DNA of 55,035 nucleotides, taken from an uncultured Ruminococcus sp. Its GTDB lineage: Bacteria; Bacillota; Clostridia; Oscillospirales; Ruminococcaceae. The stretch's first letter is position 1, and each line of letters begins with the position of its first letter. Shown in pieces: positions 27,173 to 34,325 of this stretch. Location of the stretch: assembly GCA_902780505.1 (NCBI GenBank), contig CACZFN010000025.1, forward strand, positions 36,903 through 91,937. The letters run 5' to 3'. Below the pieces are notes generated by a model. The model searched no databases, was not told the DNA's origin, and was given only the letters and a program-made list of their open reading frames with translations. The translations under genes were made by a program, and so were the position numbers.

Positions 27173-28243
27173 CTATATTGCGCCTGCGCTTAATAAGCAT
27201 ACCATCTGCTCGTTTTTGTCGTAATCCCAGCTGTGGTATGATCCCCCTTCGCAGAAATCACGGTGCTCACAGCGCCGGCATTCTTCGTTTTTTGTGTAAA
27301 GCGGTGTGCGGTATATCTTAAACCCCTCCCGCCATACCTTTGTAAAATCATCACGCAAAATGTTCCCCTGTATCGTTTCACTGCGCCTTTCAATGTCAAG
27401 GCAGGCGGCAATGTCCCCGTTTGCCATAATGCTTGCAGTGTATACCCCCGCATTGCACAGGAAATACCAGTCCCTCACTTCACGCTCGTAATCAAGCCCT
27501 AAGTAGTGCGAACACCCGTATGTCACAGGGTAGCCCTCTCTGCGCTTGCGCTTTATAAAGTCAAGCATCTGAAACTGCTCGTCACGGCTTAAAAAAAGCT
27601 CTCCAAGCTCAAGCGCCCTGCCTATAGGCTCTATCCCTATCACCCGCCATGAATCCACATCAAGCTTACGGCATAACTCAAACAGGCTTTCAAGTTCAGG
27701 CAGGCTCTTTTTGGTCACGACTGTCGTTATCTGAACGTTCCCGAAGCCCCCCTGCATAAGGTTTTTTATCCCCTCGACCGCCCCCTTGAAACCGCCCCTT
27801 GTGCGCCGGAAGCTGTCGTGCGTTTCTTCAAGCCCGTCAAGGCTTACCGAGATAGTCGCCATGCCTGCCTCTTTCAGCTTTTTTGTGACCTCCCCCGTGA
27901 TAAGTGTTGCATTTGAAGTCATGCCCCACCTGAAGCCAAGCTTGTGAGCGTAAGTCACTATCTCAAAAAATTCCTTTCTTAACATAGGCTCTCCGCCCGT
28001 TATGCAGAGCATGGGGAGCCTGCCTGAAAAATCATGCTTTATCTTGTCAAGAAAACTATAGTATACATTCAAAGGCAGTTCTTCGCTCACCACATCATTG
28101 CACCTGCTCCCGCAATGCAGACAGTTTTCGTTGCACCGCAGCGTAAGCTCTAAAAATAACCTCCTCAGCTGCGGCGACTTCCTTAACTGCTGCTTGTATC
28201 CGTAAAGCTGTTTAAGCTGTGCGGTCTTTGTTTCGTTATTCAT
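27173..28243 (-). CDS. Radical SAM/SPASM peptide-modifying enzyme (putative)
   Basis: A 356-residue radical SAM enzyme. The [4Fe-4S] motif is C37-NENC41-LHC44, followed by ITGGEP and SVSLDGLEETHDSFR. The C-terminal SPASM region holds the extra cluster Cys (FLCNAG, ACLDIE, CRRCEHRDFCEGG, MVCLL). SPASM enzymes commonly modify peptides. Its start overlaps by 8 bp the stop of a gene for a repeat-bearing small lipoprotein-like peptide, the obvious substrate candidate. No leader-binding RRE domain was recognised, and no protease or exporter gene is adjacent. Substrate and reaction are inference. Confidence 0.88.
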   Translation of the reverse strand: MNNETKTAQLKQLYGYKQQLRKSPQLRRLFLELTLRCNENCLHCGSRCNDVVSEELPLNVYYSFLDKIKHDFSGRLPMLCITGGEPMLRKEFFEIVTYAHKLGFRWGMTSNATLITGEVTKKLKEAGMATISVSLDGLEETHDSFRRTRGGFKGAVEGIKNLMQGGFGNVQITTVVTKKSLPELESLFELCRKLDVDSWRVIGIEPIGRALELGELFLSRDEQFQMLDFIKRKRREGYPVTYGCSHYLGLDYEREVRDWYFLCNAGVYTASIMANGDIAACLDIERRSETIQGNILRDDFTKVWREGFKIYRTPLYTKNEECRRCEHRDFCEGGSYHSWDYDKNEQMVCLLSAGAI

Positions 28244-28583
28244 TCATGTCACCCTTGCCTTCAAACCACTCGGGCGGTCCGTATACACAGGCGTTTATGT
28301 TCTCATCAGGGTTAAAGCTGCTTTCTTCGGCGGTGCTTGTGTCCTCCTCGGGTTCTTCCTCCCTCTTTCCTTCAAACCACTCGGGCGGCCCGTATACCTC
28401 CTCGTTTTCGTTTAGTTCGGGGTTAAACGTTGTGCTTTCCGAAGGCGTTGAAAACTTTGATGTCTGTATCTCTGATGACGGCTCGATGGACTCGGGCGGC
28501 GGTCCGTATACACAGCCGTTCATATTTGCAGCCGCAGAAAATATAGTCCCCGCCAGAAGCCCCTTTTTCAGCTTTTTAAACAT
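28236..28583 (-). CDS. Putative rSAM substrate: small lipoprotein-like peptide with three VYGPP repeats
   Basis: A 115-residue protein. A basic N-terminus and short hydrophobic stretch (LLAGTIFSAAANMNGC) place Cys24 where a lipobox Cys would be, though NMNGC is not canonical. Three units follow: CVYGPPPES (24-32), VYGPPEWFEGK (63-73) and CVYGPPEWFEGK (99-110), spaced 37-38 residues. The later two are each preceded by (T/S)FNPxxNxN. The linkers are Glu/Ser/Thr-rich and look disordered. The overlap with the radical SAM gene suggests the repeats are the modified cores. Bacteroidota rSAM/lipoprotein pairs have, as I recall, a similar C-x-Y-G-x-P next to the lipid Cys. Confidence 0.8.
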   Translation of the reverse strand: MFKKLKKGLLAGTIFSAAANMNGCVYGPPPESIEPSSEIQTSKFSTPSESTTFNPELNENEEVYGPPEWFEGKREEEPEEDTSTAEESSFNPDENINACVYGPPEWFEGKGDMNE

Positions 28584-28738
28584 TCTAAGCCACTCCCTTT
28601 CTGTAAATAATGAATATGGTCATATACGTGACACACCACGACCTTGACTGCAAATAATGCTGAGGCAGCACCGCACAACTGCCGGCTGACGCCTCTGCAC
28701 GCCATCAGCACACGGGCTGTGGTGAGGTATATAATGCT

Positions 28739-30019: not shown

Positions 30020-30637
30020 TTACCCGCTTATATACTCCCTTACTCTCAGCTTTATGCCCGCCTTGTCAGCAAGCCTGCGTGAAAGCTCTATCTTTTCTTC
30101 CCCTATCACATCAACCACCGTGAACATTACTTCCCCGACATAGTTCTTTACGTTCTGTGCAAATTCAAACATTGCCGCAAAACAGTCTGTGTCCTTAAAT
30201 GACGGGCGTGTGACCTCGTCGTATTCTTCCTTTGTCGGCGCATTAAGACTTACCGATACCGTATCGAGCCTTCCCCTGAAGTCGGCTTCAATGCTTCTTT
30301 TGTTTATTATGTTTCCAAGCCCGTTTGTGTTGAGCCGTGTCTTTATGCTGCTTACACTCTTTATATAGTCGGCAACCGTAAGCAGTATGTCAAGCTCACA
30401 GGTAGGCTCGCCGTAACCGCAGAACACTACCTCGCTGTATTTTGACAGGTCGCGCTTTTTTATGTCGTTTATTATCTCCTCCGCCGTCGGCTGGTGTTCA
30501 AGCCATAACGGATCTGAACCGTAAGCACCGTCACCGTTGTTTCTTATGCAAAATGTGCAGTTGCACGGGCATTTGTTTGTTATGTTTATATAAAGCCCGC
30601 TGCCCACCTCGTAAGTCAGTGTCATTGATCTTTTCAT
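30020..30637 (-). CDS. TatD-associated radical SAM protein
   Basis: A 205-residue compact radical SAM protein with N-terminal ITNKCPCNCTFCIRN (CxxxCxxC), VFCGYGEPT and TRLNTNGLGN. It lacks a SPASM domain. Size and motifs match the TatD-linked rSAM family (TIGR04038 as I recall), whose reaction is unknown. A tatD gene is in the window but at a separate site (54076). Lies between uvrC and folC with gaps of 16 and 3 bp. Confidence 0.87.
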   Translation of the reverse strand: MKRSMTLTYEVGSGLYINITNKCPCNCTFCIRNNGDGAYGSDPLWLEHQPTAEEIINDIKKRDLSKYSEVVFCGYGEPTCELDILLTVADYIKSVSSIKTRLNTNGLGNIINKRSIEADFRGRLDTVSVSLNAPTKEEYDEVTRPSFKDTDCFAAMFEFAQNVKNYVGEVMFTVVDVIGEEKIELSRRLADKAGIKLRVREYISG

Positions 30638-33279: not shown

Positions 33280-33798
33280 TCAGTTTTTAATGCTTGTGTC
33301 AATGTATCCTATGTAGATATTGTCATTTTCCTTTGATAATTCGTCAAGTGCCGCCCTTATGCTCTGCATATCACGGTAAAGCACCTTGTTGCCGTCATAT
33401 ATCACCGCAGCTAAAACAGCTGCATCCTCAGGTATCTCTATGCTGTTTACCGCCTGCTTTATCGCCTCTGTCTGCTCAAAGCCAAGCCTGTCAAGTTCCT
33501 CCCCGCCAAAGGATAAAACAAGTACATCGGAATTTTCATCAAAGCTTATCTTCAGCTCGTAAAGCTGCCCGTCAGCAAACCCCGTAAGCGCTTTTGCAAG
33601 GGCTTCCTCCTTTTGCTTTTCTTCGTCAAGCTGCATCTGAACAAGCTTTGTCTGCTCTTTTGCGGCAGCTATTTCCTCATCAGCCTTTTCACGGTAGTTC
33701 TCACTCTGCTCACTTGAATTCATCATCACCCAGAAAAGCATTATAAGTATAACATCAAGCAGCGAGGTCAGCTCTATGATTATCCCCTTCTGCTTCAT
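33280..33798 (-). CDS. ExbD/TolR/MotB-like proton-channel subunit
   Basis: A 172-residue protein. A single N-terminal membrane helix contains Asp15 in ELTSLLDVILIMLFWVMM, the position of the proton-carrying Asp of ExbD, TolR and MotB. A Glu/Lys-rich coiled coil (about 33-68) and a folded domain (about 75-172, with VLYRDMQSIRAALDELSKEN) follow. No peptidoglycan-binding OmpA motif was seen. Its ATG overlaps the ExbB-like stop (ATGA), so the two are coupled. It should form the rotor or plug of the energised complex; the client is unknown. Confidence 0.82.
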   Translation of the reverse strand: MKQKGIIIELTSLLDVILIMLFWVMMNSSEQSENYREKADEEIAAAKEQTKLVQMQLDEEKQKEEALAKALTGFADGQLYELKISFDENSDVLVLSFGGEELDRLGFEQTEAIKQAVNSIEIPEDAAVLAAVIYDGNKVLYRDMQSIRAALDELSKENDNIYIGYIDTSIKN

Positions 33799-34325
33799 AC
33801 CGCCTGCTTGTCCTCCGCGCCTTTTTCTTTTCTTTCCGCCCAGTTTCTCTCTAAAAACAGTGCGACTGTCTTTTCATTGTCCTCTATCCTTGCAGATATC
33901 ACCCCGTCTAAAAGCTTGAATATTATCGCAAATACAAGCCCCCAGAAAGTCGAAGTAAGCGCCGCGTAAAAATTCCCCGTTATGTCCGCCGAATTGTCCA
34001 TAATGGATAAAAGTGAGGCAACTGTGCCGAGAATGCCAAGCAGCGGGAATATCCCCGTCAGGTTCATAAATACCGAATACAGCTTTGCACTTTTTGTGCG
34101 CATGGCAGTAAGCTCTGTTTCCGTCAGTTCTTTGACAGCAAGCTCAGCCTGTGCCTTTGAAAAATCATTGTCCGGCACAAAAACCGTCAGGTGCATTTTC
34201 TTGTAAAGATTATCCGCCGCCCCGTAAGCAAAATAAAATACTATGGCATTTGCTATCGCCACAAGAAAAATTATTGCATCAAACCCTGCTATATTTGAAA
34301 AAATGACTTTAAACATTTTTATCAC
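33795..34325 (-). CDS. MotA/TolQ/ExbB-like proton-channel protein
   Basis: A 176-residue membrane protein with three helices. One N-terminal helix (DAIIFLVAIANAIVFYFAYG), then the family core GIFPLLGILGTVASLLSI and FYAALTSTFWGLVFAIIFKLLDG, the helices that line the proton path in ExbB and TolQ. In diderms such complexes energise outer-membrane transport, which this organism should lack. It leads a three-gene unit from the promoter at 34363-34391. Confidence 0.85.
   Translation of the reverse strand: MIKMFKVIFSNIAGFDAIIFLVAIANAIVFYFAYGAADNLYKKMHLTVFVPDNDFSKAQAELAVKELTETELTAMRTKSAKLYSVFMNLTGIFPLLGILGTVASLLSIMDNSADITGNFYAALTSTFWGLVFAIIFKLLDGVISARIEDNEKTVALFLERNWAERKEKGAEDKQAV

Follow-up and report, generated by a model that had tools for sequence, protein, structure and literature searches.

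We describe a two-gene locus in a 55,035-nucleotide stretch of DNA (the window) from an uncultured Ruminococcus sp. (assembly GCA_902780505.1, contig CACZFN010000025.1, positions 36,903 to 91,937 of the forward strand), in which a small predicted lipoprotein with three Val-Tyr-Gly-Pro-Pro (VYGPP) units is encoded immediately upstream of a radical S-adenosylmethionine (SAM) enzyme with a SPASM domain. The coupling between such enzymes and YGPP proteins is real and widespread, as is well supported by the genome comparisons given below, and Tyr-Gly is the core of a module that recurs in proteins of very different build. By analogy with the spliceases, the pair may form a protein-editing system in which the SPASM enzyme splices the backbone of a surface protein at X-Tyr-Gly with excision of tyramine, the resulting ketoamides being displayed on the cell; we regard this proposal as evenly poised.

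Gene pair in the window

The features of the locus, all on the minus strand, are as follows.

27173-28243, minus: radical SAM/SPASM enzyme of 356 residues, of a sister family of TIGR04133
28236-28583, minus: precursor open reading frame (ORF) of 115 residues from the ORF list, a predicted lipoprotein with three F-x-[PA]-x-x-N-x-N-x-x-V-Y-G-P-P units
28515-28583, minus: predicted signal peptide, residues 1-23, ending at the lipobox MNG-C24 (sequence reading)
28497-28541, minus: unit 1, residues 15-29, F15...N20-x-N22-x-C24-V-Y-G-P-P
28383-28427, minus: unit 2, residues 53-67, FNPELNENEEVYGPP
28272-28316, minus: unit 3, residues 90-104, FNPDENINACVYGPP, matched by the VYGPPE DNA pattern
28236-28243, minus: 8-bp overlap of the precursor stop and the enzyme start
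28593-28600, minus: AAAGGGAG, Shine-Dalgarno-like, 5′ of the precursor start (sequence reading)
28252-28256, minus: AAGGG, Shine-Dalgarno-like, within the precursor gene and 8 nt 5′ of the enzyme start (sequence reading)

A preliminary description of this DNA had reported a 115-residue peptide with Cys24 at a lipobox-like position, VYGPP repeats spaced by 37-38 residues and an 8-bp overlap with the SPASM gene, and these details are as it gave them. The VYGPP stretches begin at Val25, Val63 and Val100 (spacings of 38 and 37 residues), the first directly after the lipobox Cys24, and the overlap makes translational coupling of the two genes likely. On aligning the three units, F15/F53/F90, N20/N58/N95, N22/N60/N97, V25/V63/V100 and Y26/Y64/Y101 fall in register, and a Cys stands before the Val in units 1 and 3 (C24 and C99). 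The lipobox and the hydrophobic stretch before it predict a lipoprotein. Shuffling the peptide 20,000 times never gave two or more YGPP (one YGPP in 54 shuffles), and none of the 123 other window frames of at least 100 codons has YGPP, with YG.P present in 3. The Pfam and NCBIfam profiles gave no family for the peptide at E up to 1. Also, the scan for promoters and terminators at the locus showed no excess over shuffled sequence, and the z score for the fold of the leader RNA was -0.40.

Pairing of enzyme and motif protein across genomes

Enzyme relatives were collected by scanning species genomes of bacteria and archaea, and the best 80 of 125 were taken. Their labels are nearly all Clostridia, many of them ruminant-derived (Ruminococcus, Lachnospiraceae, Oscillospiraceae), with one Coriobacteriaceae and one Alistipes. 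When the window and the relatives from related genomes had been added and five duplicates and one unrelated enzyme removed, the set comprised 82 distinct loci. A locus was counted as paired if, measured from the enzyme start, an ORF with X-YG-[PSG]-[PG] lies no further than 2 kb on the upstream side or 4.5 kb on the downstream side; this is the case at 73 of the 82 loci (67 with the ORF upstream, 6 downstream only). Two more loci carry a CAYGPGP lipoprotein downstream of the enzyme (L024) or a cut ORF with VYGPPEDMP (L076), so that a YGPP-type ORF is found near the enzyme at 75 of 82, bearing out the earlier view that peptide and enzyme belong together. Three loci lie at contig edges (L041, L047 and L068), and in four genomes (L065, L069, L080 and L087) VYGPP lipoproteins with 1, 1, 5 and 4 units respectively are encoded elsewhere in the genome. 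No third gene recurs beside the pair, the commonest neighbour cluster being present at 6 loci; the preliminary description pointed out that the window has no adjacent protease or exporter, and neither recurs at the loci.

The converse was examined with a DNA pattern for VYGPPE. Among 61 related genomes it is found in 7, twice in each and always adjoining the enzyme, and these are exactly the genomes carrying the enzyme at 58% identity or above. The other 54 are free of the pattern and include G029, whose 36% enzyme clusters in the tree with a NirJ1-like enzyme. A reversed control pattern gave 10 matches in 6 of the 61 genomes. Of 391 genomes drawn class-wide, 15 carry the enzyme. All 12 enzymes at 48% identity or above adjoin a motif ORF (one of them cut by a contig edge), and all 3 at 41-43% adjoin an ORF with LYGVP, MYGSP or AYGID and a hydrophobic N-terminal stretch. 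Exact VYGPPE occurs in 12 of the 391 genomes, 3 of them among the 15 with the enzyme and 9 enzyme-free; the remaining enzyme genomes carry VYGPPP, VYGPPS and similar variants. The 10 matches in the 9 enzyme-free genomes lie in frames that by eye are unlike precursors, one being a long aminotransferase-like ORF, and a precursor-like VYGPPE frame without the enzyme was thus not seen in these genomes.

Putative recognition module

Module statistics were calculated over 212 units in 73 loci, weighted by locus, with positions counted from Tyr; it may be noted that Tyr, Gly and the last Pro are partly imposed by the search expression. Upstream, the most frequent residues are Phe (49%) or Tyr (24%) at -11, Pro (48%) at -9, Asn (71%) at -6, Asn (38%) or Pro (20%) at -4, Cys (36%) or Asp (21%) at -2, and Val (71%), Ala (15%) or Leu (6%) at -1. 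Downstream they are Pro (96%) at +2, Glu (43%) at +4, Asp (28%), Tyr (14%), Glu (12%) or Trp (10%) at +5, and Phe (35%) at +6. The module that recurs across scaffolds is F-x-P-x-x-N-x-N-x-x-[VA]-Y-G-P-P, with 1-7 units per precursor, and the repeats are conserved in relatives. Two findings that would have told against the preliminary description, a peptide widespread in the absence of the enzyme and repeats lost in relatives, were thus looked for and not made in the genomes compared. When precursor ORFs were searched for [FY]xPxxN with no requirement for YG, a correctly placed YG followed in 74 of 80 matches, and 4 of the 6 misses are cases where the expression matched the Tyr-Gly-Pro stretch itself. 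In degenerate units Tyr-Gly is retained and Pro varies (YGPS, YGPE, YGAP, YGVP, AYGID). The constant part of the units is thus X-Tyr-Gly, the recognition motif of spliceases, which had not entered the considerations of the preliminary description.

In the window precursor the signal peptide itself holds F15, N20 and N22 of the module, and the same arrangement is general. Among the 25 distinct C-X-Y-G stretches that close a signal peptide, Phe is present at C-9 in 23 and Asn at C-4 in 24 (26 and 29 of 32 on adding seven internal or doubtful stretches); in 28 further lipoprotein-like ORFs of these loci the corresponding counts are 2 and 1. Since the module extends into the signal peptides, it would be simplest to suppose that the enzyme meets the pre-protein in the cytosol, ahead of signal-peptide removal.

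Scaffolds carrying the module

A lipobox-like site (regular expression plus hydrophobic stretch) is present in 75 of the 90 precursor ORFs, which are predicted lipoproteins on this basis. Other bodies carry the same motif. Dockerin type I domains accompany YGPP at four loci (L048, L051, L054 and L058; above the Pfam cut-off in all 4 tested), the L063 precursor is a Big_2 protein, and zinc-ribbon-like proteins with YGSP occur at L070 (under the Pfam cut-off) and L192 (by eye). Small precursors of L037, L062, L088 and L160 have no obvious signal. At L014 (3515-4564) a prolipoprotein diacylglyceryl transferase (LGT, 258.6 bits) has a C-terminal NPTVYGPPEMMNPV tail, and the lipidating enzyme Lgt may here be itself a substrate. 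A single motif across so many bodies has the look of a portable modification site.

Some further observations concern these scaffolds. The Lgt gene of L014 is followed directly by the genes for a YGPP lipoprotein and the enzyme. YGPP repeats at L045, L060 and L061 appear by eye to be fused to dockerin-like domains as well, and the seven dockerin loci together provide a link to cellulosome-like complexes. Downstream of the enzyme at L031, L032 and L036 there are tandem lipoproteins with a YGPP or YG[VA]P N-terminus and about 200 more residues; those of L031 (3334-4104) and L032 (6869-7594) gave no Pfam family at E 0.01.

A phage origin of the pair was considered and rejected. A single-query search of viral contigs gave no relative, an alignment search of them gave 6 loci, five at just 26-31% identity, and the phages collection gave 6 weak matches at 21-30.3%. 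The sixth of these loci, on the IMG/VR contig L192, has an enzyme at 59% beside its zinc-ribbon-like ORF, which has IYGSP and LYGSP.

Enzyme family

The window enzyme has the radical SAM (75.2 bits) and SPASM (27.8 bits) domains of Pfam, each over its cut-off, and 11 conserved Cys (37, 41, 44, 48, 244, 263, 281, 322, 325, 331 and 349). The CX3CX2C motif, the SPASM Cys set and the predicted fold of a general SPASM peptide maturase are all present; in structure libraries that list no splicease, SuiB, SkfB and anSME rank at the top for the enzyme model. A comparison with the TIGR04133/TIGR04134 pair had been suggested earlier, and this is indeed the nearest named system: the best NCBIfam model is TIGR04133 (rSAM_w_lipo) with 276.2 bits, under its cut-off of 425, as are the enzymes of three relatives (253-281 bits). 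In the tree the enzyme family groups with TIGR04133 (support 99/98), this group joins the TIGR04103 and TIGR03913-type enzymes (94/92), and the NirJ-like, MftC and TIGR04053 rows are separate. G45-S46, H142 and W199 are shared in the enzyme alignment and were counted toward kinship with spliceases. By the cut-offs the enzyme belongs neither to TIGR04133 nor to TIGR04103, and it may nevertheless work similarly.

Proposed splicing at X-Tyr-Gly and its alternatives

We take IPR026482 to be TIGR04103, which would presumably place PlpX within that family. Known spliceases remove tyramine from X-Tyr-Gly, a net loss of C8H9NO, and leave an alpha-ketoamide behind. PlpX itself is assigned to IPR026482 and was studied with the RRE protein PlpY (PMC11002830). 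For PlpXY, tyramine excision at X-Tyr-Gly brings a mass loss of 135.0757 Da, the natural sites being MYG and LYG (PMC10533398; the motif definition also in PMC11002830), and spliceotides are reported as protease inhibitors (PMC11117315). In the window family a putative X-Tyr-Gly substrate likewise lies next to the enzyme. A Nostoc TIGR04103 enzyme (853 bits, cut-off 725), taken to be a splicease, adjoins a Nif11 precursor ending GGRGSIALYGLPPELF, which includes LYGLPP. TIGR04134 lipoproteins beside TIGR04133 have, near the N-terminus, CEYGSP (Parabacteroides), CEYGTP (Phocaeicola) and CYGMP (Treponema). Enzymes of TIGR03913 type, above the cut-off in Azospirillum and below it in Aureibacter, adjoin DUF1843 proteins with PYGPAM or PYGAGI.

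On this analogy, the product of the small gene would be a preprolipoprotein containing several F-x-x-x-x-N-x-x-x-x-X-Tyr-Gly-Pro-Pro units. While the signal peptide is still attached, each unit would be bound in the cytosol by the SPASM enzyme, which would act at X-Tyr-Gly; excision of tyramine there would leave an alpha-ketoamide in the backbone. After export and lipidation of Cys24, several ketoamides would be displayed on the cell surface, the dockerin versions perhaps on a cellulosome. Tethered in this way, they could plausibly inhibit, covalently and reversibly, proteases with a preference for a small aliphatic P1 (X being P1), though inhibition of proteases at the surface is speculative.

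Several observations weigh against this reading. The window enzyme scores only 118.2 bits on TIGR04103 (cut-off 725), lower than on AhbD (153.6), NirJ2 (142.2) and TIGR04053 (128.3), and the 94/92 support for the joint group is moderate in a tree that is sparsely sampled and midpoint-rooted. Cys48 and Cys244 are kept in the enzyme family and TIGR04133, not in the splicease-type rows, so the active sites may differ. The comparison covers one TIGR04103 cluster and no more than three TIGR04134 lipoproteins; these come from plasmid records, and a further search added no others. The upstream F..N module is missing from those three and from the Nostoc precursor, and only X-Tyr-Gly(-x-Pro) is therefore common to all. 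Two more precursor-like genes of the Nostoc locus are without X-Tyr-Gly, the N-terminal X-Tyr-Gly is missing in 2 of the 4 DUF1843 proteins compared, and frames close to unrelated SPASM genes also contain X-Tyr-Gly by chance. No PlpY-like or RRE-like partner was found, the query being a single short and therefore weak one, the 72-residue downstream protein of Nostoc (a possible PlpY counterpart), which gave no convincing match.

The strongest alternative keeps the same Tyr-Gly and replaces tyramine loss by another radical chemistry, such as mycofactocin-like oxidation with an X-Tyr C-C bond, a linkage of Tyr to Asn at -6, epimerisation or desaturation. MftC, a relative (115.6 bits for its model on the window enzyme), acts on a Val-Tyr pair (PMC8326336), and Val at -1 and Asn at -6 are conserved alongside Tyr (71% each). 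The family's own Cys48 and Cys244 and the lack of a recurrent partner gene would also suit such a chemistry. Gly after Tyr is, however, retained where Pro is lost, which suits X-Tyr-Gly splicing and has no obvious role in bonding X to Tyr, and the MftC rows are separate from the enzyme family in the tree. We hold this alternative to be possible, and somewhat doubtful.

Side-chain crosslinks were the model of the preliminary description, which saw in the Trp-Phe-Glu-Gly-Lys and Tyr-Gly-Pro-Pro parts residues that SPASM enzymes often cross-link. Positions after YGPP vary, this tail is not conserved among the units and Trp is wholly absent from 52 of the 90 precursor ORFs; the pairing, the conserved repeats and the kinship with TIGR04133/TIGR04134 stand, and this part of the claim is not supported. 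Taken more generally, a multi-core ribosomally synthesised and post-translationally modified peptide (RiPP) with one cyclophane or thioether per unit, formed through Tyr, Trp, Phe, Glu, Lys or Cys, is unlikely. The conserved aromatic, Lys or Cys partner of crosslinking RiPPs (cyclophane, streptide, sactipeptide) is not seen over the 212 units: +5 and +6 vary, and Cys at -2 reaches only 36%, on which ground a sactipeptide or ranthipeptide was dropped as well. We favour splicing at X-Tyr-Gly over such crosslinks because of the YGxP of TIGR04134, the LYGLPP of Nostoc and the action of spliceases at X-Tyr-Gly. A docking or purely structural role of YGPP, the true substrate being another protein or a small molecule, is very improbable: nothing speaks for it directly beyond the enzyme's resemblance to AhbD/NirJ2 of the heme pathway, no other neighbour cluster exceeds 6 loci, unit number varies from 1 to 7, and the four genomes lacking an adjacent motif ORF still encode a motif protein.

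Implications

Beyond the pair itself, TIGR04133/TIGR04134, the VYGPP family, the Nif11/TIGR04103 spliceases and DUF1843/TIGR03913 might form one X-Tyr-Gly backbone-editing superfamily that chiefly displays alpha-ketoamides on surface proteins of gut anaerobes; we put this forward tentatively, with more doubt than confidence. If it were true, from one to many ketoamides would be placed on lipoproteins, dockerin scaffolds and membrane proteins with no secreted peptide product, giving genetically portable electrophilic surfaces that could act as multi-headed covalent protease inhibitors or as crosslinkers. If the proposed splicing by the pair is right, ketoamide formation would extend past leader-bearing RiPPs to surface lipoproteins in many Clostridia, and the orphan TIGR04133/TIGR04134 pair would gain a directly testable function. 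The module is short (about 15 residues), occurs on many scaffolds and shows no partner gene, which would make it a candidate tag for producing ketoamide proteins. The open-access papers searched, a scope outside which a 2022 splicease survey falls, hold no functional reading of the pair and do not name TIGR04133, TIGR04134 or 'radical SAM-associated putative lipoprotein'; 'VYGPP' is absent from the papers among the matches listed.

Other genes in the window

Beyond folC, a TIGR04100 (rSAM_pair_X) radical SAM protein is encoded at 30020-30637 on the minus strand (296.6 bits, cut-off 262), with no indication that it belongs to the enzyme/precursor pair. At 33280-34325 (minus) the ORF list reads as a MotA/ExbB-like ORF followed by an ExbD-like one, in a Clostridia genome.

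Comparison with known systems

Like the window pair, TIGR04133/TIGR04134 consists of adjacent genes for a SPASM enzyme of similar size and a predicted lipoprotein partner, and YGxP is present in all three TIGR04134 lipoproteins compared. These differ in that each has a single YGxP and lacks the F..N module, as opposed to 1-7 units set in mostly unstructured-looking linkers in the window family, and the single lipoprotein put through Pfam has a carboxypeptidase-regulatory-like body. The window peptide and the precursors of four relatives gave no match to TIGR04134 at E up to 1, and none to Nif11/NHLP in NCBIfam.

Two side observations belong to the splicease-like systems: DUF1843 proteins lie beside TIGR03913-type enzymes at L106 (3141-3854), L121 (2287-2742) and L105 (3698-3910), and in Agathobacter rectalis a 35-residue unannotated ORF ending GPVMYGTGVRM adjoins a splicease-like enzyme. 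SuiB (streptide) and SkfB (sactipeptide) maturases are 20-22% identical to the window enzyme and have another substrate motif, and the first 98 or so residues of SuiB are without a counterpart in the alignment (model 18-351 corresponding to SuiB 99-439). The PlpX-type and TIGR03913-type systems are alike in having a SPASM enzyme next to a small protein that contains X-Tyr-Gly (in those systems LYGLPP, PYGPAM, PYGAGI, MYGTGV), whereas the putative substrates of the window family are for the most part predicted lipoproteins or secreted scaffolds.
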